This document shows, piece after piece, positions 28,271 through 64,000 of a stretch of 64,000 nucleotides of DNA. The stretch covers positions 1 through 64,000 of the forward strand of contig SXUI01000051.1 of NCBI GenBank assembly GCA_005790605.1, written 5' to 3'. Position 1 is the stretch's first letter. Each line of letters opens with the position of its first letter. Under the pieces are notes generated by a model. The model searched no databases, was not told the DNA's origin, and worked only from the letters and a program-made list of their open reading frames with translations. This DNA comes from Planctomycetia bacterium (lineage in GTDB: Bacteria; Planctomycetota; Phycisphaerae; Phycisphaerales; SM1A02). Both the position numbers and the translations under genes were made by a program.

Positions 28271-29785
28271 ATGAAAATCAGACTTCTGAGCACAGTTGTG
28301 TTTTTGGCTGCGTCGTCGTCGGTGTTTGCTGGCGGTGTTGGTGGCGGAAACTGGGTTGTGATTCCGAACTACCGCTCGACTGCGGATAGTCCGTTCTACG
28401 CCGCTGAGGGCGGCGACCTGATGGTGCTCAACGACTTCGAGATTGCTGCGTTCACTCCCCCAGGAACTGTGACCCTTGGCGGGTCCGGCACGCTCGGCAA
28501 CTCGGTCGACGGTGATGACGGTGCGATTGATGGAGTCGCGGGACCTGACGCGAGCGCGCTGTGGGTCATCGGATCGTTCTCGGTGGAGTTTGACGCTTCC
28601 GTTCTTGGCGGACTTCCGACGCGCGTAGGAATCGTGTGCACGGATCTGGTCCAAGTTGGCGGCGGGAACCCCGATCTTCGCGTCATCGCTGTCGACGCTG
28701 CAAGCAACATGCATGTTCAGGAGTTCGTCATCGACAATGTCGGCGGACCTGGTGACGACATCTTCGTTGGCTTTTCTTTACCGGCGGGCGTGACGAACTT
28801 TCAAGTCATTCCTCTGTCGGGAATCGGGACATTTGACCATTTGCAGTATGAACAACAGCCCGCACTCGTGCCCTCTTTCGTGATGGACGATTTCAATTTC
28901 GATGGCAAGAGCGATGTGTGCTGGTATTCGGCCGGTTCTTCGCAATCCGCTGTCTGGTTCATGAACGGAGTCGTTCGTGATAGCGGTGGGCTCACCGCTC
29001 TGAACCCTGCGCAGAATGTGGACGCGGTTGGTCGTGCGGACCTCAACGGTGACGGCGTCGCTGACATGGTTTTCCAAGATCCATCTGACGGTCAGCTCTC
29101 GGGTTGGATCATGAATGGCAACGCGATTCTGCAGGCTGGACCGATCCTTGGATCGCCGACCGCGCAGGACATCGTGCTCGGGTTGGCGGATCTCAGTGGG
29201 GATCGTCGCGCAGACATCGTGTGGCTCAATCAAGACACGGGTGTCGTGAGCGTTTGGTACATGAACGGACTCGCGCGAACCGGTGGCGGGACGATCATGA
29301 ATATCACGGGCTCCGAGTTCCTTGGTCTCGGCGATCTCAACGGCGATGGCCGTGCAGACATGGCATATCGCAACACAACTACCGGAGTGGTTTCTGGCGC
29401 GCTGCTCTTCGGAAAGACAATCCTCTCGCAGGGACCAATTGCGAACGCAGCGGCAGTCGGTCCAGCGTGGGATAGCCCAGGCCTTGCGGATACCTATGGA
29501 AGCGGCAAGTCGCAGATTCTCTGGCGCAACTCGACGACCGGCGAACTTCGATCATGGGTGATGGATGGCCTGACCCGAGTTTCAGGCGCCCAATTGGCGT
29601 GGTACTCCCCAGGTTACTGGTGGGAAGTCGCTGCGACCCCTGACTTGAATGGTGACGGTAAGGATGACATCCTCTGGCGGTCGCCGTACAGCATCGGTGT
29701 GTACGGGTGGATCATGGACGGCGCTACCAAGGTGTCCGGATCCTTCATTCGCAACGTCTCCTATCCATGGCAGATCGTGAACTAA
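28271..29785 (+). CDS. Exported FG-GAP/VCBS-type repeat protein (array member 5)
   Basis: A 504-residue secreted protein with a strong ribosome site (AAGGGAG) and signal peptide (MKIRLLSTVVFLAASSSVFA). The N-terminal domain (about residues 20-195) is beta-rich and unrelated to the other members. From about residue 205 there are seven repeats built on DxNxDGxxD and W-x-MNG, such as GDLNGDGRADMAYRN and GWIMDGATKVSGSFIRNVSY. The C-terminal ending, Ser-Phe-Ile/Val-Arg/Lys-x-Val-Ser, recurs at the end of the repeats in other members. A terminator follows 30 bp after the stop. Function unknown. Confidence 0.83.
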   Translation: MKIRLLSTVVFLAASSSVFAGGVGGGNWVVIPNYRSTADSPFYAAEGGDLMVLNDFEIAAFTPPGTVTLGGSGTLGNSVDGDDGAIDGVAGPDASALWVIGSFSVEFDASVLGGLPTRVGIVCTDLVQVGGGNPDLRVIAVDAASNMHVQEFVIDNVGGPGDDIFVGFSLPAGVTNFQVIPLSGIGTFDHLQYEQQPALVPSFVMDDFNFDGKSDVCWYSAGSSQSAVWFMNGVVRDSGGLTALNPAQNVDAVGRADLNGDGVADMVFQDPSDGQLSGWIMNGNAILQAGPILGSPTAQDIVLGLADLSGDRRADIVWLNQDTGVVSVWYMNGLARTGGGTIMNITGSEFLGLGDLNGDGRADMAYRNTTTGVVSGALLFGKTILSQGPIANAAAVGPAWDSPGLADTYGSGKSQILWRNSTTGELRSWVMDGLTRVSGAQLAWYSPGYWWEVAATPDLNGDGKDDILWRSPYSIGVYGWIMDGATKVSGSFIRNVSYPWQIVN

Positions 29786-29814
29786 GTTCCGATCCTTGCA
29801 GAAACAGACCTTCC

Positions 29815-29840
29815 AACCGCCGCTCATACGAGCGGCGGTT
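29815..29840 (+). terminator. Stem-loop terminator after FG-GAP gene 28271-29785
   Basis: A perfect 11-bp stem AACCGCCGCTC with the 4-base loop ATAC, followed by GTGTTCTT. It is a short way downstream of the stop and ends seven bases before palindromic element copy A. Confidence 0.72.
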
Positions 29841-29846
29841 GTGTTC

Positions 29847-30079
29847 TTGATCGCTCGCGACTTGGAATCTGCGGCCAGACCGCAGATTCCTCGCTCGCTT
29901 TCGACTGCGCCGGGGCGAGTGAATCGCCACCGGCGCAATTCCGATGTCCTTTGATCGCGCCTGATCAACGCATTGAGCCCGATCTCCGGCGGTGCCGATT
30001 CACTCGGCCCGCCGGAGTCCATAGCGAGTGCAGCGTTTTTGCGGCGCTTCGCCGCAAGAAACCTGACACGAGCGCTCAA
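29847..30079. repeat. Palindromic intergenic element, full copy A
   Basis: 233 bp between inverted ends TTGATCGCTCG (29847) and CGAGCGCTCAA (30069-30079). It contains four hairpins: H1 29864-29890 (11-bp stem GGAATCTGCGG), H2 29907-29936 (GCGCCGG and GGCGA stems, GTGAA loop, bulged A), H3 29984-30017 (CTCCGGCGG and GCCGA stems, TTCAC loop, bulged T) and H4 30039-30057 (TTGCGGCG stem). The right half read in reverse has the same order of parts as the left half. The 209 bp after it, up to the next start codon, hold nothing recognised. Confidence 0.85.
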
Positions 30080-30288
30080 GGGACGCGCCTTTTTGACTCG
30101 AACACGAACATCCGCCGCCTCCCGAGCGTTTTGTTACTCGAATCTATCTCTTGTCAGCCGCCGAATTTCCGCAACTCGTTTTCCACGAATGCTTCGCCCG
30201 AACTCGGTTTTCGCGTTTGGCTTCGGGAATTGTCGATGACGAGAGCCGCTCATACTCCTTTCCGGAGCGATATCCGTTGGTGACCACA

Positions 30289-32925
30289 ATGATGTTGAAC
30301 ACACTCCCGAGTTCTGCCGCCGCTGTCACTCTGTTTGTATCCGGCAGCGTGCTCGCTGGCACTGTGCCCCCCTCGAGTTCGTTCGCGTGCTGGGGACGCC
30401 AAGACGGAGCGCAATGCGCGACACCCGCGATTTCAAATTCGCTTCGCGTGCTCGCAACTGATGCAGGTATCGGATTCGGGCTCATCCTGCTCGATGATGG
30501 TTCGCTTCTCCACTGGGGAGACTCGGCCTTTCAACAGGATCAGATACCAGTCCTTCAACAAGGCGAGACATTCATCGCCGCGAGTGCTGGCGGTGCACAT
30601 GCCATCGCAATCTCGTCGACTGGCACGCTCTACGGTTGGGGCTTTGATACCTTCGGGCAAGCCTCTGTTCCCGTGATCGGTCCTGGTCTCACCGCGACCA
30701 AAGTTGCTGCAGGCGAGAGCCACTCGCTCGCACTGCTTTCGGATGGCTCAGTGGTTGGTTGGGGTCTCAACTCAGCGGGGAAAACTGCACCTTATTCGCC
30801 GCCCCCTGGAGTGGATGTGGCTCAGTTGCGCGCTGGACTCGATCACAACGCGGTCCTTCTTACTGACGGAAGCGTTGCCTGCTGGGGCGACAACACCGAA
30901 GGCGAGTGCGATGTGCCGGTGCTTGGCGCGGGTGAAGTTTTCATCGAGGTGCAGTGCGGTCGAAACTTCACGCTCGGGTTGACGAATGCTGGTGATGTCT
31001 TGGTGTGGGGCGATGCCGCGTTTACCACAGTTCCCGCAGCGAGTGGTCACATCGAGCACATCTACGGAAAGTTTGTGAACGCAGGGTTTGTCACCGCCGA
31101 CGGAACGCTCACGATCTGGGGCAATGATGGATTCGCGCAGACGAGCGTGCCTGCTATGACAGGCGTGATTCGCGCGGTTGCCATCGGGGAGCAGTTCATC
31201 GTCGTAGGGCTTGAAAGCGACTGCGACGAAGACGGCTTCTCGGATAAGCAGCAGATTCTGGCTGACCCGACGCTCGACTGCGATGGTGATGAGCGGCTCG
31301 ATGGTTGTCAGATTGACGCTGACCCGACACTCGACTGTGACCTTGATCGCGCACTCGACTCATGTCAAATCAGCGCGAATGCGCTGCTCGACTGCGACGG
31401 GGATGGGGACTTAGATTCTTGCCAAGTCGTGACTGATCCGTCGCTTGACTGCAATCACGATGGCGATCTCGACTCTTGCCAGGTGATTTCGGACCCGACG
31501 CTTGATTGCGATGGTGATGGAATCCTTGACGAATGCGCGCAGCAGGCGACCGGAGTCACCAGCGAAATCGTGGCACCGTTTGGCACCGGTGATGTCGTCA
31601 CGGCATCAGGCACAAACCTCGCGTTGCCGGTGCTCGATGTGCGGGTCGAGGCGACCGTGCGAGCGGACATTGGAAGCTTCGGCGAGTGGCTTGAGCTTTC
31701 ACTCAATGGAACGATCATCGATTACATGTTTGTTGGCGCCGGAAGTAACTGTTCGACTGCGGTGGAAACTGAAGTGATCTTGCTCGACAAAGATCTCTTC
31801 ACCGCGCTCGCCCCCGATGGCGATGTCTCGCTCTCACTGCGACCGAGCATTCATGTGTCGACGCTTGAGTGCGCGACGAGTCAAGCCAAGCTTGAGGCGA
31901 CTTGGGTGAGTGAGGGTTCGGATTGCAATGGCAACGGAGCGCCAGATCTCTGTGAACTCGATAACGGCGACATCCCAGACCGCAACGCTGACGGCTTACC
32001 TGATACCTGCACCTACATGCCAGACGAGGACTTCAATGGTGACGCCAAGGCGGACATTCTTTGGAAGAACGCGAATAGCAACCAACTGACGGTCTGGTTC
32101 ATGAACGGAACCACGCGAACAAGCGGGGCGCTGCTTGGGGTCAGTCCTCCCGTTGGCTTCTCCTTCAATCAACTTGGCGATCTCGACGGCGATCACCGCA
32201 CGGACTTGATGTATCGCAACAGCGCGCTCGGTACATTCTTCGCGTTCCTGCTTGAGGGTGCTCTTTCGGAGGAGGCAGGAAGCGTCGATGCGTCAACGGT
32301 TCCATCTTCAACGAAGTTTCTCGCGATGCCGGATCTCAATGGCGATGGCCGCAGCGACATGCTTTTCAAGAGCACGATCAGTGGTGAAGTGAATGCGTGG
32401 CTGATGGAAGGTCGGGCGAAATCCACCGGCGGTGTCGTGTCATCTGCCAACGGTCTCGCCTTCCTCGGTTTTGGCGACCTCGATGGTGACGGCGACGACG
32501 ATCTCCTTTGGCGAGACGCTGCGGGTACGGTGAGCGGTTGGCTCATGTCTGGGTTGGTTGCAACGGAGACAGGCGCGATCGTTGGAGCTTCTCAACTCGG
32601 CCAAGAGTGGCAGCCTGCATCGGTCGGCGACCTCGACGGCGATGGTCGCGCGGACTTGCTCTGGCGCAACTCCACCAGCGGGCAGGTCAACGCGTGGTTC
32701 CTCGGCGGTCTTGAGAAGGTCGGCGGCGGTCTCGTGAACTCCACGCTCGGCGTGAACTATCGCGTTGAGTGTCTCGCTGATTTCGATGGCGACATGAAAG
32801 AGGACATCGTGTGGCGCAATTCGCAGAACGGCGACACCTATGTCTGGCTCATGGATGGCCTCACGAAACGAACCGGCGCGTTCGTCAAACGAGTCTCACT
32901 CGATTGGGATGTGCAGAATCAGTGA
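30289..32925 (+). CDS. Exported mosaic protein: RCC1-like, Asp/Cys repeats, FG-GAP repeats (array member 6)
   Basis: An 878-residue protein. The ATG at 30289 (GGTGA five bases before; a second ATG follows at once) begins the signal-like MMLNTLPSSAAAVTLFVSGS. Residues about 25-310 are RCC1-like blades with recurrent GWG/CWG (LYGWGFDTFGQASVPV, VACWGDNTEGECDVPV). About residues 310-415 are five short repeats DPTLDCDGDxxLDxCQI, resembling calcium-binding thrombospondin-3/dockerin loops with paired Cys. A beta domain then leads to another DCNGNGAPDLCEL unit. From about residue 580 there are six DxNGDGxxD/W-x-MNG repeats as in the other array members. Extracellular role unknown. An upstream frame from 30151 gives no signal peptide and was rejected. 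Confidence 0.82.
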   Translation: MMLNTLPSSAAAVTLFVSGSVLAGTVPPSSSFACWGRQDGAQCATPAISNSLRVLATDAGIGFGLILLDDGSLLHWGDSAFQQDQIPVLQQGETFIAASAGGAHAIAISSTGTLYGWGFDTFGQASVPVIGPGLTATKVAAGESHSLALLSDGSVVGWGLNSAGKTAPYSPPPGVDVAQLRAGLDHNAVLLTDGSVACWGDNTEGECDVPVLGAGEVFIEVQCGRNFTLGLTNAGDVLVWGDAAFTTVPAASGHIEHIYGKFVNAGFVTADGTLTIWGNDGFAQTSVPAMTGVIRAVAIGEQFIVVGLESDCDEDGFSDKQQILADPTLDCDGDERLDGCQIDADPTLDCDLDRALDSCQISANALLDCDGDGDLDSCQVVTDPSLDCNHDGDLDSCQVISDPTLDCDGDGILDECAQQATGVTSEIVAPFGTGDVVTASGTNLALPVLDVRVEATVRADIGSFGEWLELSLNGTIIDYMFVGAGSNCSTAVETEVILLDKDLFTALAPDGDVSLSLRPSIHVSTLECATSQAKLEATWVSEGSDCNGNGAPDLCELDNGDIPDRNADGLPDTCTYMPDEDFNGDAKADILWKNANSNQLTVWFMNGTTRTSGALLGVSPPVGFSFNQLGDLDGDHRTDLMYRNSALGTFFAFLLEGALSEEAGSVDASTVPSSTKFLAMPDLNGDGRSDMLFKSTISGEVNAWLMEGRAKSTGGVVSSANGLAFLGFGDLDGDGDDDLLWRDAAGTVSGWLMSGLVATETGAIVGASQLGQEWQPASVGDLDGDGRADLLWRNSTSGQVNAWFLGGLEKVGGGLVNSTLGVNYRVECLADFDGDMKEDIVWRNSQNGDTYVWLMDGLTKRTGAFVKRVSLDWDVQNQ

Positions 32926-34130: not shown

Positions 34131-34245
34131 TCAACGCCGAATTGAGCCCGATCTCCGGCGGTGCCGATTCATTCGGCCCGCCGGAGTCCAAAGCGAGTGC
34201 AACGATTTCGCCCTCTGTGGGCGAGAATCTTGCACGAGCGCTCAA
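34131..34245. repeat. Palindromic intergenic element, right-half copy B
   Basis: This copy retains the centre (TCAACGC...TTGAGCCCGATCTCC, as in copy A), H3 (34153-34186, CTCCGGCGG and GCCGA stems, loop TTCAT) and H4 with a different but still paired stem (TCGCCC/GGGCGA, 34208-34224). It ends in CGAGCGCTCAA and GGGACGCG as in copy A. The left half is missing; TTGAGCG at about 34110 may be its remnant. It lies between the two 41-bp repeats. Confidence 0.8.
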
Positions 34246-36327: not shown

Positions 36328-39102
36328 TTGCAGCGCATTTTTTCTCCGGCAACTTCCGCGTCTTTCCTCCTCGCTCTTCTGTTCCCTGCGTGCATCGCGT
36401 GGAGCGAGTTGGTCGTCGCGTCTGCGCAGGACGCTGCGAGGTCATCCGAAGAGGGTGGTGCGGCGGCGCGCCGCTTGTTGAAGCGGTTTGACTTTGAGAG
36501 CGCGGAGGAATTCCCAACCGAGATGCCTCCAGGCTTCTATCGCGTCTTGACGAGCGAGTCGGGGCAGCCAGGGTTTCCGCCCTTTGGGAGGGTGGCGCTT
36601 GTTCGGACGGAAGCAAGGAGCGTCGCTGGCGGGAACTCGTCGCTGACTCCGAAGGGACATTGGTCGCTCTCGTTTCAGTTGGATGGAGCGGCGATCGCCG
36701 TCGCGTCGTCACCCTCGCTCATTCCACTCACTCCACGAGCACGGCCGCACATCAGTGCAGTTGTGCACACGAGTGGTCTCACCTCCGCGGGAGTTCGATT
36801 CACAGCGCGATTCGTCGATGCTGCCGGAAATCCGATTCCAGGAGCGTGGTCTACGACTCCAGTGCGGAGTGAACACGGGTGGCGCAGAGTTGAAATGGAA
36901 ATGGCGGAAGCGCCTGTTGGTGCCTCCGCCTTGACTGTCGAAGTTGCGATCATGCAGCCCGACGGTTCGGCTGGTGCAGATGGGCTTCCAGCGAGACGAG
37001 ATGTCACGGGCACGGCGTGGGTCGACGACCTCGTGGTGTGGCAACTCCCGACCGCAGACTTTGCAGCGACCGACGAAGGGATTTTTCAAGCCACAACCGA
37101 GCCAACGCTCCATGTCGCGTGCCGTGACCCGATTGCGAAAGCCCTCTCTGTGCAAGTCGTCGTGCGCGATGTCGCTGGCGCGATCGTTGTGCGCAAAGTT
37201 CACGCGATGCAAAACGCGGAGGAACTGCATTTGTCGCTCGGCGCGCTTGCGCCGGGTTGGTACTCCGCGGACGCGCACTTCTTTGATGAGGAAGCGCGGA
37301 TTGCGACGCGACGCGCGCAGTTCTGCGTTGTCGCTGAGGATGCATACGAAGCCAATCAACCGCCGCGATTCGGTGTGGTCTTTGCAGAGCGCGCGATGGA
37401 AGATCCTTCTCGAACGATCGCGCAAGCATCGCTCGCTCGCGCCGCGTTCGCCGTGTTGCCTATCTGGACTGGGGCAACGGACCTTGGAAGTTCACAATTG
37501 CTCGTGCACGATCTTCGCGGGCTCACGGAGGGCATGTTCGAGCGCTCCATTCGCCCGATGTTTCGAATCGCGGGTGTCCCATCATCACTTGCCACAGCCG
37601 AGAAGCTCGACACAACCCAAGTCATCGATCTATTCGCGGGGGATGACGCTCGCTGGAAAGGTGCGCTTGAGCCGTGGCTCATCGCGTTTGGCCAACATGT
37701 AACGCACTGGTTTCTCGGAAATGAGGCGCCTGATCCAGCCACGCCAGAGCTCGCTCCCAAACTCATGCGAGCGTCGAATGCGTTGCGCACATTCATCGCG
37801 GGACCCGCGATCGTGACGCCGTGGATGCCGGAGGAGTTGATGCCCTCGGCGATGGCGGATGAACTACGTGCGGCGCGGTCGTGGGTTGAATTGCCGCTCG
37901 CGCCAGGTTGGTCACTCAGTGCGGGTGAGACACCTCTCGCATCGCTGCCGCCTGCGGATCGACTGTTTGCGACGATCGAGCCACTCTCTGCGTCAACCGC
38001 GGAGTCTCAGTTTGAGATTGGACCTCGTGATGAAGCGATCGACATAGCGCTTCGCGCCATCGACGCATGGAAGGTTGGCATCACCTCGATTGCAGTGGAT
38101 GCAGAGGTTAGGAGCGAGGTGCCTGGGCCATCCATCGGAGTCGCCGCGTGGCGACAAATCTCGACGCATCTTGGTGGCCGAACTTTTGTGACCGATGTTC
38201 CGCTTGGCGAAGGACTGCGTGGCGTCCTCGCAGATGGACCTCGCGGCGCTTGCTTGGTTGCATGGAACGAGTCTCGGAAAGAAGGCGCCACGCTCAACAT
38301 CGCGTTGGGTCGTTCGGTCGTAACCGCGACGGACCTGTGGGGCCGAATGCAGCAGATCGCTCCCTCGGAAGATGGTCACGCGATTGCGCTCATGCGCGAG
38401 CCGATGTTCTTTGAGGGAATTGAGCGCGAGGTGCTGCAGTTCCGCGCGGCCGTGCGCATCGAGCCGAGGTCGATTGACGCGCGCCGCGCACCGCAACCGC
38501 TCAGCATCGTGCTGCGAAACCCGTGGAAGCATCAAATCAGTGGGACGCTGTTGTTGCCGCAGTTCGACGATGCGGATCTTGCACCACGCGCATTGCCATT
38601 CTCGATCCAGCCCTCGATGGAGGCGCGGCTCGAAGTCGCACTCGGCGTTCCGCGAAGTCGTCCCTCAGGCGAGGTTGATCTTCATCCGATCGCGCGCGTG
38701 TCGGGTGCCGAGGAGTACTCCATTCCGCTGAGCGCCGTTGTCGAAACGGGTTTCGAAAGGGTTTCCCTCGAGTCTTCTTGGCGACTGGCGAAGAGCGTGG
38801 AGAGTGATCGCATTGACCTCATCGTGACGACGCGCGTGACGAATGTGAGCGCGACGGCGCTCGATGTCGAGGCGTTCGCAGTGGCCGATGGTTACACGCA
38901 ACACCGAAAACCGATTGAGGATCTCCAGCCCGGACAGACCGCGGTCCGCGTCTTTCACTTTCCCGGCGGCGCGCGTGCGTTGTCGGGCCGTGATGTTCGT
39001 GTTGGTGTGCAGGACAGCAATCTCGACGCGAGATTGCTCAAGTTGCTTCCAATCCCGCCGTTCGTTCCACCAAGCGCTGTCGTTGGTGTGGGAGACTCAT
39101 GA
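36328..39102 (+). CDS. Large exported protein, possible glycoside-hydrolase-like fold, first gene of nonulosonate operon
   Basis: 924 residues from a TTG start; a TAG lies four codons upstream and no ATG exists until well inside, so TTG is the likely start. No strong ribosome site. The first residues (SFLLALLFPACIAWSELVVA) look like a signal peptide. About residues 50-240 are a beta-sandwich-like region and about 340-640 may be a TIM-barrel-like region. HWFLGNEAP near residue 460 resembles the Gly-Asn-Glu acid/base segment of clan A glycoside hydrolases. The C-terminal 250 residues are beta-rich. It overlaps the Maf-fusion start by 4 nt, implying coordinated production. No family was recognised with confidence; activity is speculative. 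Confidence 0.6.
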   Translation: MQRIFSPATSASFLLALLFPACIAWSELVVASAQDAARSSEEGGAAARRLLKRFDFESAEEFPTEMPPGFYRVLTSESGQPGFPPFGRVALVRTEARSVAGGNSSLTPKGHWSLSFQLDGAAIAVASSPSLIPLTPRARPHISAVVHTSGLTSAGVRFTARFVDAAGNPIPGAWSTTPVRSEHGWRRVEMEMAEAPVGASALTVEVAIMQPDGSAGADGLPARRDVTGTAWVDDLVVWQLPTADFAATDEGIFQATTEPTLHVACRDPIAKALSVQVVVRDVAGAIVVRKVHAMQNAEELHLSLGALAPGWYSADAHFFDEEARIATRRAQFCVVAEDAYEANQPPRFGVVFAERAMEDPSRTIAQASLARAAFAVLPIWTGATDLGSSQLLVHDLRGLTEGMFERSIRPMFRIAGVPSSLATAEKLDTTQVIDLFAGDDARWKGALEPWLIAFGQHVTHWFLGNEAPDPATPELAPKLMRASNALRTFIAGPAIVTPWMPEELMPSAMADELRAARSWVELPLAPGWSLSAGETPLASLPPADRLFATIEPLSASTAESQFEIGPRDEAIDIALRAIDAWKVGITSIAVDAEVRSEVPGPSIGVAAWRQISTHLGGRTFVTDVPLGEGLRGVLADGPRGACLVAWNESRKEGATLNIALGRSVVTATDLWGRMQQIAPSEDGHAIALMREPMFFEGIEREVLQFRAAVRIEPRSIDARRAPQPLSIVLRNPWKHQISGTLLLPQFDDADLAPRALPFSIQPSMEARLEVALGVPRSRPSGEVDLHPIARVSGAEEYSIPLSAVVETGFERVSLESSWRLAKSVESDRIDLIVTTRVTNVSATALDVEAFAVADGYTQHRKPIEDLQPGQTAVRVFHFPGGARALSGRDVRVGVQDSNLDARLLKLLPIPPFVPPSAVVGVGDS

Positions 39103-61979: not shown

Positions 61980-62753
61980 ATGAGCTTGACTGACACGCTT
62001 GCTGAGTACCGCATCCGCCTCAACGAAGGCGCGTTGGACTTTTTCGACGAGCATCGGCGTCGCATCAGAGTTGCGGCGACTGCGTGCGCGATTCTGCTTG
62101 CGGTTGGTGGCGGCGTGTACTGGTGGACGAACGTTCGATTTCGTCCACCCCCATCGATCTTTGATTCGCCGGTTGATGATGTGTTTGGGTATCTCTCGTT
62201 GTCTGACTTCTCGAAGCTTCCGCTTGACGAGCGACTTGAGTTTCTTCTGAGTCTGGCCGACCGATTCCGGAATTTCAGTCAAGGAGATTCTGCTGCTGCT
62301 GCTGCGTTCTTGGCTGGTCTCGCCGGACCTGCCCGCGAACAAGCGACGCAAAATGTTCGCCTCCTCGCAAAGGACATCCTCGCACAGGGCGCGTCTGGCT
62401 ACTTCGAACTTCCTGAGGCGCAGCGTGGAAAGTACATCGACGAATGGCTCTTGAAGTGGATGAAGACCGGCGAGCGCATCACGACAGGCAAAGAGCGCGA
62501 AGGCAGTGATGATGAGCGATTGAAGGACCTCAAGGACGACGCAAAACGTGGAGAAGCACGCCGCACTGAGCGGTTCGGAGGTGGGGGTGACGGCGAAGGC
62601 CCTTCAACAAACACGATGCCGTCGCTGTCGGGTGAAGGCGCGACGCGCTTCCTCGACTTCTGGGGCAGTGATGTTGAGAGCGCTTCGACCCCGCGCGAGC
62701 AGGGGCAGATTGTTCGATTTCTCGGTGATGTTCGCAAGCGCGTGCTGCAGTAG
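61980..62753 (+). CDS. Hypothetical single-pass membrane protein
   Basis: 257 residues, no family recognised. A short cytoplasmic N-terminus (MSLTDTLAEYRIRLNEGALD) precedes one membrane helix (VAATACAILLAVGGGVYWWT, about residues 31-50). The helical soluble part includes LSDFSKLPLDERLEFLLSLA and FELPEAQRGKYIDEWLLKWM, and an acidic, Gly-rich low-complexity stretch near residues 165-205. It starts 24 bp after the pseudopilin gene, so it may act in the same process. Its TAG stop abuts the first base of palindromic element copy C. Confidence 0.7.
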   Translation: MSLTDTLAEYRIRLNEGALDFFDEHRRRIRVAATACAILLAVGGGVYWWTNVRFRPPPSIFDSPVDDVFGYLSLSDFSKLPLDERLEFLLSLADRFRNFSQGDSAAAAAFLAGLAGPAREQATQNVRLLAKDILAQGASGYFELPEAQRGKYIDEWLLKWMKTGERITTGKEREGSDDERLKDLKDDAKRGEARRTERFGGGGDGEGPSTNTMPSLSGEGATRFLDFWGSDVESASTPREQGQIVRFLGDVRKRVLQ

Positions 62754-62988
62754 TTGAGCGCTCGCGACTTGGAATCCGCTCCAAGCAGCGGATTCCTCGC
62801 TCGCTTTCGACTGCGCCGCCGCGAGTGAATCGCGAGCGGCGCAATTCCGGCGTCTTCTGTTCGCGCTCTACTGACGCACTGAGGCCGCCCTCCGGCCGTC
62901 GCGATTCACTCGCGCGGCCGGAGTCCAAAGCGAGTGCAGCGTTTTTGCCGCTGGCCTTGCAGCGGCAGGAAACCTGCACGAGCGCTCA
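62754..62988. repeat. Palindromic intergenic element, full copy C
   Basis: 235 bp from TTGAGCGCTCG (62754-62764) to CGAGCGCTCA (62979-62988). Hairpins: H1 62771-62796 (GGAATCCGCT stem), H2 62813-62842 (GCGCCGC and CGCGA stems, GTGAA loop, bulged A), H3 62890-62923 (CTCCGGCCG and CGCGA stems, TTCAC loop) and H4 62946-62967 (TGCCGCTG stem). It begins at the base after the stop codon of the preceding gene. Confidence 0.86.
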
Positions 62989-62993
62989 GATTC

Positions 62994-63104
62994 TTGAGCA
63001 CTCGCGACTTGCGGCGCGTTGGATCCAGTTCGCGACCGTGGTGATAGGCGCGCCGCCTCGCTCGCTTTCGACTGCGGCGCGGCGAGTGAATCGCCTGCAC
63101 CGCA
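62994..63104. repeat. Palindromic intergenic element, left-half copy D
   Basis: Starts TTGAGCACTCG six bases after copy C. It holds an H1-like stem (GCGGCGCG/CGCGCCGC with a longer loop), the conserved TCGCTCGCTTTCGACTG, and an H2-like hairpin with GTGAATCGCC at 63073-63104. No right half is present. It is the most diverged unit. Confidence 0.72.
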
Positions 63105-63119
63105 AACTCGGAGCAAGGT

Positions 63120-63356
63120 TTGAGCGCTCGCGACTTGGAATCCGCTCCAAGCAGCGGATTCCTCGCTCGCTTTCGACTGCGCCGCCGCGAGTGAATCGCG
63201 AGCGGCGCAATTCCGGCGTCTTCTGTTCGCGCTTTACCGACGCACTAAGCCAGATCTCCGGCGGTGCCGATTCACTCGGTCCGCCGGAGTCCAAAGCGAG
63301 TGCAGCGTTTTTGCCGCTGGCCTTGCAGCGGCAAGAAACCTGCCACGAGCGCTCAA
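63120..63356. repeat. Palindromic intergenic element, full copy E
   Basis: 237 bp from TTGAGCGCTCG (63120) to CGAGCGCTCAA (63346-63356). The left half is nearly identical to copy C (two differences seen), but H3 (63256-63289) carries the CTCCGGCGG/GCCGA version of copies A and B, with one G-T pair. It ends 15 bp before the hrpB stop. Together C, D and E fill the 617-bp gap, which has no other recognised feature. Confidence 0.86.
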
Positions 63357-63370
63357 GGGACGGGACGAGC

Positions 63371-64000
63371 TCAAGGGTCGCGCCAGTCATGCCGCGGGTA
63401 GCGCCGGCGAAGCGCGTTCCGCATTTCGGGGTAGAGCACGCGCCAGAAATTCCCGAGATCCTGCGTAACTTGCAACGGTCGGAGGTTTGGGCCGAGGAGT
63501 TCAAGCGTGATCGTCTGCCTTCCGCCCGCGACGGATGGTGTTTCGTGCAGTCCAAAGAAGTCTTGGATCTTCGATCGACCGCGCGGTGATGCGCCTCTGG
63601 TGTACTCAAGTTTCATCTTGCGACCACTCGGAAGCCCGATGGATGAAGGAGCCATGCGTTCGACGAATTGGAGGTCATCCCAGCTGAGCGCGCTTCGAAG
63701 CGCCTCAAGCGACGATCTCGCCTCAACTTCCTTCGCTCGGACACAGCCGGCGACGAGTTCAGCGCGCAGCACCGCGAGGTCTTCTGCCTCATAGGTCAAC
63801 AATGCCCGTTCGGGAAACCAATCGGCGACGCATCGCACGCGTTCAATCCACTGTGCGCTGTGACTCTCCCAATCTTCGAAGCTGATTTCGCCGCTGTCGA
63901 TCCGCGAAACGAGTTCCGCTTCGACTGCAGGCGAAGGAGTTGCCGGGCGCGCGATGCGTGCCACTGGAATCTCTGCAAACAACTCCTCTTCGACACACTC
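63371..64000 (-). CDS. hrpB: ATP-dependent helicase HrpB, C-terminal part (N-terminus off window)
   Basis: The last 209 codons of a gene entering from the right edge. The sequence matches the HrpB-specific C-terminal domain: ALRSALSWDDLQFVERMAPS, then IGLPSGRKMKLEY, SKIQDFFGLHETPSVAGGRQ, TITLELLGPNLRPLQVTQDL, GNFWRVLYPEMRNALRRRYP, and RHDWRDP at the end. The helicase core motifs lie outside. HrpB is a DEAH-type RNA helicase of unknown cellular role. A TTG at 63982 inside the frame is not the true start, since the frame stays open to the window edge. Confidence 0.92.
   Translation of the reverse strand, partial: ECVEEELFAEIPVARIARPATPSPAVEAELVSRIDSGEISFEDWESHSAQWIERVRCVADWFPERALLTYEAEDLAVLRAELVAGCVRAKEVEARSSLEALRSALSWDDLQFVERMAPSSIGLPSGRKMKLEYTRGASPRGRSKIQDFFGLHETPSVAGGRQTITLELLGPNLRPLQVTQDLGNFWRVLYPEMRNALRRRYPRHDWRDP

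Follow-up and report, generated by a model that had tools for sequence, protein, structure and literature searches.

The palindromic intergenic elements found as copies A to E in the window, the whole 64,000-nucleotide stretch of DNA analysed here, belong to a real repeat family that extends across genera of the order Phycisphaerales and occupies gaps behind genes in freshwater planctomycetes. The copies are probably small, non-autonomous mobile DNA repeats resembling REP sequences and REPINs and recognised as a folded strand. In this mechanism, the unit start TTGAGCGCTC, the linker CTCGCTYTSG and, mostly, a GTGAA loop with a bulged A would be held constant, while the stems would be free to vary as long as they pair. 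A protein acting in trans would read linker, loop and bulge on the folded single strand and copy or move the unit, perhaps on the occasion of strand exposure at replication. Insertions in front of genes would be removed by selection, and in G000, the genome that the window comes from (99% completeness, 3.03 Mb on 80 contigs), the joining of two units head to head would have produced the common dispersed form.

Anatomy of the unit and its copies in the window

Each unit of the repeat is a module with two hairpins that spans about 105 nt and consists of TTGAGCGCTC, hairpin X, the CTCGCTYTSG linker (in a longer reading, (C/A)TCGCTYTSGAC between hairpins X and Y), hairpin Y, usually with the loop GTGAA and a bulged A, and a short tail. 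This anatomy was read from the GTGAATC loops and the TTGAGCGCTC ends, and its cleanest form occurs in another genome of the genus, G077, as single units arranged in tandem and in one direction. In copies A, C, and E two modules are joined head to head, and B and D each consist of a single one. A preliminary description had proposed a palindromic element with up to four hairpins (H1 to H4). Several hairpins are indeed present, but the four-hairpin form is a head-to-head pair of the basic two-hairpin module, and H1 to H4 correspond to X, Y, and then Y and X of the opposite strand. R1, a model that covers hairpin Y and its linker, places eight units in the window, where the features are as follows.

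29808..29845, plus strand: terminator-like hairpin of its own (z -6.2), after the stop at 29785 and ahead of copy A
29847..30079, plus strand: copy A, head-to-head pair of two-hairpin units
29890..29953, plus strand: left unit of copy A, with linker, hairpin Y (H2) and tail (R1 match)
29969..30032, minus strand: right unit of copy A, with linker, hairpin Y (H3) and tail (R1 match)
34131..34245, minus strand: copy B, single unit (hairpin Y match at 34138-34201)
61980..62753, plus strand: gene called with a codon model trained here, its stop codon adjoining copy C
62754..62988, plus strand: copy C, head-to-head pair, directly after the TAG stop of gene 61980-62753
62994..63119, plus strand: copy D, single unit with a long-loop hairpin X and an imperfect hairpin Y
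63120..63356, plus strand: copy E, head-to-head pair with the ends TTGAGCGCTCG / CGAGCGCTCAA
63137..63162, plus strand: hairpin X (H1) of the left unit of copy E
63178..63209, plus strand: hairpin Y (H2) of the left unit of copy E, 8 bp + 5 bp, loop GTGAA, bulged A
63257..63288, minus strand: hairpin Y (H3) of the right unit of copy E, GTGAA loop on the minus strand
63302..63343, minus strand: hairpin X (H4) of the right unit of copy E
63371..64000, minus strand: convergent gene that runs off the window

The convergent genes 61980..62753 and 63371..64000 are separated by a gap of 617 bp, which C, D, and E together take up. All five copies lie where the preliminary description had placed them, and the stem variants that it named, including the G-T pair in E, as well as the GTGAA/TTCAC loops and the single bulged base, are present in the sequence. 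The shared inverted ends that it assigned to the copies hold for E. The left end of A is TTGATCGCTCG, with one mismatch, and C ends in CGAGCGCTCAG. The apparent left end of B, TTGAGCCCG, proved to be the tail of what is one unit, and D, thought to possess both ends, is one unit with TTGAGCACTCG that lacks the right half. The complementarity of the GTGAA and TTCAC loops arises because the units are paired in inverted orientation. A kissing-loop RNA between H2 and H3 was considered and set aside for this reason, and also because neighbouring units in G077 are direct. When folded as single-stranded DNA, seven of the eight window units reach z values of -3.9 to -6.9; the fold of copy D is no better than those of shuffled sequences (z -0.70). 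As a side observation, the genes flanking copy A (28322-29785 and 30217-32925) are related to each other (34-36% identity), and the ORFs 30151-32925 and 36328-39102 are of equal length (924 aa each).

Pairing and covariation of the stems

A blastn-type search with copy E against G000 yielded 97 matches at E<=0.001. For the pairing test, rows were chosen by the linker motif and a TGAA at fixed distance, with pairing playing no part in the choice; 88 rows were obtained, about six of which are expected by chance. Another 18 rows, in which TGAA sits 1-2 nt off this position, were excluded, one of them (L060:2594) being a real unit. In the 88 rows, 1042 of 1144 stem cells were paired; when the 3' halves were dealt among the copies, 1000 rounds averaged 810 paired cells and never exceeded 860. 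An alignment of 77 rows (A2) was made by removal of three duplicates and of eight rows with low pairing, two of which (L039:2518 and L050:2565) appear to be genuine units that are damaged; it represents H2 of copy E by the identical hairpin of copy C. In A2, 94.3% of 1078 cells are paired as opposed to 74.5% after shuffling, 10 of the 14 pairs vary on both sides, and the covariation score is 0.416, compared to 0.110 for shuffled and at most 0.104 for slid alignments, although such counts treat related copies as independent and are inflated by stem exchange between copies. A weaker measure, the number of further pair types, gave 21 versus 18.2 and was matched by 25 of 500 shuffles. Thus, the stem changes are compensated far beyond shuffled and slid controls, in agreement with the earlier proposal.

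Linker, loop, and bulge remain mostly constant while the stems vary. The bulged base is A in 74/88 rows of the pairing test and in 69/77 rows of A2. A scan for shape only (8+5 bp, 5-nt loop, one 3' bulge) of the window and the loci L031-L062 gave 90 matches, 76 of them with the loop GTGAA or ATGAA. Of 13 positions, 12.6 pair in the 69 units with an unaltered linker, 12.6 in the 11 with a single linker mismatch, and 9.0 in the 2 with two such mismatches, diverged copies being too few to judge a loss of pairing with age.

Distribution among genomes

A search of related genomes had been recommended in the preliminary description; with the hairpin Y model, all four genomes of the genus that were searched gave matches. 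At E<=0.01 there are at least 129 R1 matches in G000 and at least 28, 39, and 73 in G016, G053, and G077, respectively; 150 first-look candidates were scored per genome, so these counts may be lower bounds. Under stricter filters and at E<=0.001, R1 has matches in 16 of the 181 family genomes, which represent 6 of 45 genera. Of 400 genomes of the order, 22 contain the pattern of the hairpin X half (TTGAGCGCTC, 18-48 bases, CTCGCTYTSG); they belong to 11 of 163 genera and to two families, and the pattern reaches genus g46 of another family at three places in two genomes. The reversed pattern, used as a control, had one match each in three genomes.

The more distant units differ in their hairpins. 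Those of genus g45 have the linker and a GARTGAATC loop region (the search required both) with other stems and with the bulge on the 5' side, and some read CGTC before hairpin Y. In g46, the loci L332 and L333 carry GAGTGAATC in hairpin Y and L334 is without such a hairpin. Loops such as GATTCATC, AATTCATC, and GATTCGATC replace GTGAA in G023, G029, and G014. Units of the g45 and G029 types retain TTGAGCGCTC and the linker with different stems. Start and linker are thus the most widespread features, and the GTGAA loop, though frequent, is not universal. In G077 (L183, L190, L196), some hairpins Y have GATGCATC in place of GAGTGAATC, and this loop is self-complementary.

A scan of GTDB found at least 94 stretches; among the 80 matches listed, the titles are mostly those of planctomycete metagenome-assembled genomes (MAGs) or 'uncultured bacterium'. 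A MAG with the title Limnohabitans has units at four loci (L218, L231, L266, L278); these are perhaps misbinned planctomycete contigs or cases of transfer. An Opitutia locus among the matches listed has no unit start upstream and looks like a chance match. Carriage by phages found no support, as no exact match to the linker-loop pattern was obtained in viral_contigs.

Position relative to genes and a possible role as RNA

Genes were called with a codon model trained on the stretches and gaps of at least 60 bp were considered; in mixed GC-rich loci the calls flip frames, and these loci were kept out of the counts. Units occur in 22/25 convergent, 16/49 tandem, and 0/23 divergent gaps of G000. 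The corresponding counts are 8/9, 4/16, and 1/9 in G053 and 9/13, 13/32, and 0/10 in G077 (Fisher p 1.2e-9 for the contrast with divergent gaps, three genomes pooled). The convergent fraction is inflated because the stretches, which cover 95/129 R1 units of G000, were selected around matches, and the contrast with divergent gaps in the same stretches is the informative part. The gap counts take 95/103 and 67/72 R1 matches of two locus sets, the weakest or cut-off ones being omitted, and leave out five G000 units and two G053 units located inside called ORFs. Many units directly follow stop codons. In G000, 64 gene 3' ends face a gap with units, and a TTGAGCG-type start is found at 44 of these, in 21 cases within 10 nt of the stop codon; in G053 and G077, 5/21 and 10/15 of such starts lie within 10 nt. 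Two species share a unit immediately downstream of a tRNA-Gly(CCC) gene (L038:2337-2793 and L176:2700-3012), in the same place and orientation; its hairpin X is nearly unchanged between them, and its hairpin Y stems are altered on both arms.

Such positions are what one would expect of an RNA element that is transcribed at gene 3' ends, whose hairpins stabilise or end mRNAs and whose pairing is selected in the RNA. This explanation is unlikely, but it is the likeliest of the alternatives. Besides the location behind stop codons, it is favoured by the strong RNA folds of copies E (z -9.3) and A (z -9.4) and by a lean of units in tandem gaps toward the strand of the genes (34 with, 21 against, p 0.10). 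However, head-to-head units and units on the opposite strand are common, and unit number and orientation differ at loci shared between species. Copy A follows the separate terminator-like hairpin and so may lie past the end of the transcript. In keeping with the new family of the preliminary description, across the whole window no Rfam family reaches its gathering score, and in the region 62700-63400 there are three matches at E<=1, the best of which (RF01521) scores 26.7 bits against a gathering score of 50 (E 0.21). The non-Watson-Crick cells also speak against selection in RNA. On the GTGAA strand, G000 has 4 G-T and 12 A-C cells of 1027, and there is therefore no excess of G-U over A-C, such as would be expected of an RNA made from that strand; read on the opposite strand the numbers would be 12 versus 4, too few to build on. 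In G053 the counts are 3 and 2, and in G077 they are 2 and 19, the latter ascribed mostly to a shifted bulge in a fixed register.

Dispersal and turnover

Near-identical elements at unrelated sites demonstrate dispersal. From TTGAGCGCTCG to CGAGCGCTCAA, the loci L047 and L053 match each other except in H4, and beyond these boundaries they are dissimilar; the same applies to L049 and L055. According to the table of compared loci, seven gaps have units in both species and both flanking genes matched, and five more have one flanking gene matched. The 11 sets of shared gaps that were compared differ in unit number, orientation, or stems. In L036 of G000, a convergent gap of 280 bp holds a unit; the matching genes of G077 are 3 bp apart by gene calls. 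Judged from these sequence comparisons, the units appear to have moved.

Bacterial miniature inverted-repeat elements (MITEs) have short inverted ends, are intergenic, and are non-autonomous. It is conceivable, albeit quite unlikely, that the family is a MITE, derived from a DDE transposon with the inverted ends TTGAGCGCTCG. Full elements of G000 do possess the terminal inverted repeats TTGAGCGCTCG...CGAGCGCTCAA and have their boundaries there, and in right-type single units TTGAGC pairs with GCTCA(A) of the unit's own tail. In the compared loci, however, neither a cognate transposon nor a transposase-like gene family that recurs beside the repeats was found. No target-site duplication is visible in the compared pairs, the species pairs being too diverged to read junctions. 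Moreover, the units of G077 are direct repeats, forming arrays of single units (15 neighbouring pairs within 260 nt, all in the same direction and none inverted), and a DDE MITE would not be expected to have inner stems with compensated changes, a bulge, and an invariant loop.

The stems seem also to move as modules. L049 and L055 share the same hairpin X and a near-identical spacer, and their stems differ on both arms; L189 and L190 of G077 behave likewise. Since stems are also exchanged whole, there are fewer independent compensations than the raw count suggests. Selection on folded DNA or RNA, as originally claimed, is still a reasonable explanation, but part of the paired variation reflects the exchange of whole stems among near-identical copies. 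A more radical view would dispense with selection on folding: template switching or conversion between copies could re-pair inexact palindromes, so that paired changes would be mechanical. Stems that differ as a whole in otherwise near-identical copies would fit this process, as would the double changes in A2, many of which are G-C to C-G flips, and the small number of G-U cells. However, template correction should remove the bulge, and the bulged A and the loop survive; furthermore, different stems accompany the same linker and loop in another genus. We regard purely mechanical re-pairing as improbable, a little more so than descent from a DDE transposon.

Neighbouring units differ according to their orientation. 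Inverted neighbours never share a stem (0/28 in G000 and 0/2 in G053, or 0/23 and 0/2 if only pairs in register are taken, five of the inverted pairs of G000 and some of the pairs of G077 being out of register). Direct neighbours in register share a stem in 5/16, 1/3, and 7/11 cases, and compared to all-pair rates the p values for stem sharing of neighbours are about 0.03-0.04. The unlike stems of inverted neighbours and the shared stems of direct ones may simply reflect the descent of the pairs from one ancestor.

Search for the mobiliser

If the units are mobile repeats read as folded DNA, an enzyme should act on them. The mobiliser is not a recognisable Y1 transposase encoded in G000. The PF01797 profile (Y1, RAYT) has no match in G000, G053, or G077, so the RAYT suggested in the preliminary description is missing from the genome behind the window; the same profile had matches in 5 of 14 control genomes and in 66 of 181 genomes of the family. 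Seventeen Y1 loci of relatives (stretches of 2.2-7 kb, some ended by contig ends) contain no TTGAGCGCTC (0/17), and the R1 matches at such loci are weak (15.2 bits at L298, 10.5 bits at L151). The stretches inspected around the Y1 genes of g45 genomes are without a unit, bar one marginal match. On these grounds, a Y1/RAYT enzyme was rejected as the present mobiliser. The counter-evidence is that Y1 is commoner in genomes of the family that bear units. By R1, 10/16 genomes with units have Y1 compared to 56/165 others (p 0.03), and with the hairpin X-half pattern added the ratio is 16/24 versus 50/157 (p 0.002), with g45 supplying much of the difference and descent being uncorrected in both comparisons. 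G000 and G077, the genomes of the genus richest in units, both lack Y1. A Y1 enzyme may thus have acted in an ancestor or may act in relatives.

At five diverged places (L147, L148, and others; the query and four homologs with 47-73% identity), G016 encodes a Y1-like protein that is about 386 aa long and has an extended C-terminal part. Neither G000 nor G077 has a match to it at E<=1, G053 has two weak ones, and the two loci inspected have no unit. A recurrent transposase-like neighbour gene was recognised neither among the neighbours in G000, G053, and G077 nor in 80 named loci. At L339:2418-2852 (G020), an ORF about 120 bp from a unit resembles, by eye, an ISXO2-like (IS1595) transposase.

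A bolder version of the mobile-repeat scenario can be offered only tentatively and, though unlikely, would be slightly more plausible than a MITE origin; the association of Y1 with unit-bearing genomes lowers its probability. A so far undescribed enzyme outside the Y1 group might read the constant linker, the GTGAA loop, and the bulged A regardless of stem sequence and might spread twin-hairpin units through the Phycisphaerales. Stems would be exchanged as whole modules, and the halves of head-to-head pairs would be kept unlike (0/25 in-register inverted neighbours share a stem) so that they fold separately.

Finally, the units can hardly be attC-like recombination sites of a chromosomal integron: they are structured, variable in sequence, and located just behind stop codons as such sites are, but they lie on both strands and between convergent genes, and the integrase model matches only below threshold (best 75.5 bits versus a cut-off of 265), as it does in all 14 control genomes.

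Relation to known repeat families

REP sequences of the GTAG and CGTC families and the BIMEs built from them are high-copy intergenic hairpins that occur singly, as dimers, or in clusters, show complementary stem changes, and sit between convergent or co-directional genes (PMC3733652). The Phycisphaerales repeats also are intergenic, present in high copy (129 R1 matches in G000), and rare upstream of genes (0/23 divergent gaps). In contrast to REPs, their units have two hairpins, the constant TTGAGCGCTC start, and a GTGAA loop with a bulged A, and the REP tags are missing at hairpin Y: in 77 rows of G000 there is no GTAG within 16 nt and no CGTC within 8 nt before hairpin Y. The four bases directly before hairpin Y are GGAC in 41, CGAC in 12, and GGTG in 6 of these rows, others in the remainder, and never GTAG or CGTC. 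A further difference is the lack of a Y1 gene in G000, although CGTC REPs are themselves described without a dedicated transposase (PMC3733652).

For REPINs, an inverted doublet is described as the replicative entity and compensatory changes as common (PMC3116915). The dispersed head-to-head form of G000 (L047/L053) is likewise an inverted doublet. In contrast to REPINs, each half contains two hairpins, G077 has single direct units (15 direct, 0 inverted), and no linked RAYT was found. The structures of Planctomycetes and Acidobacteria associated with class 3 TnpA-Y1 are, in Planctomycetes, atypical and of high copy number (PMC6006769), and the class has a CnGA foot and a neighbouring tnpA. 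The units described here differ in that CnGA occurs directly before hairpin Y in 0/77 rows and within 8 nt in 1/77, and in that G000 has no PF01797 gene.

Copy number, pairing, and position are common to the present units and all three of these groups, and REPs and REPINs have the paired stem changes as well. The family is thus REP-like in its working and separate in its membership: a REP tag at hairpin Y, a linked transposase, and a single-hairpin unit are lacking. Among the matches listed in searches of the open-access literature on repeats of Phycisphaerae, Phycisphaerales, and Planctomycetes, the family is undescribed, and the matches listed in a text search for TTGAGCGCTC are off topic by title. 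Its proposed novelty therefore stands at the level of the family, measured against the libraries and papers searched, and does not extend to a new kind of element, as REPs, BIMEs, and REPINs share most of its behaviour.

Implications

Several units are located at contig ends, and the repeats may break metagenome assemblies of these lake bacteria. REP-like repeats are abundant here in genomes without a recognisable RAYT, which points to another mobiliser, or to one that acts earlier or elsewhere. Related species offer a natural series in which many different stems surround a fixed linker and a mostly fixed loop and bulge. What a reader of REP-like hairpins recognises thereby becomes directly testable.
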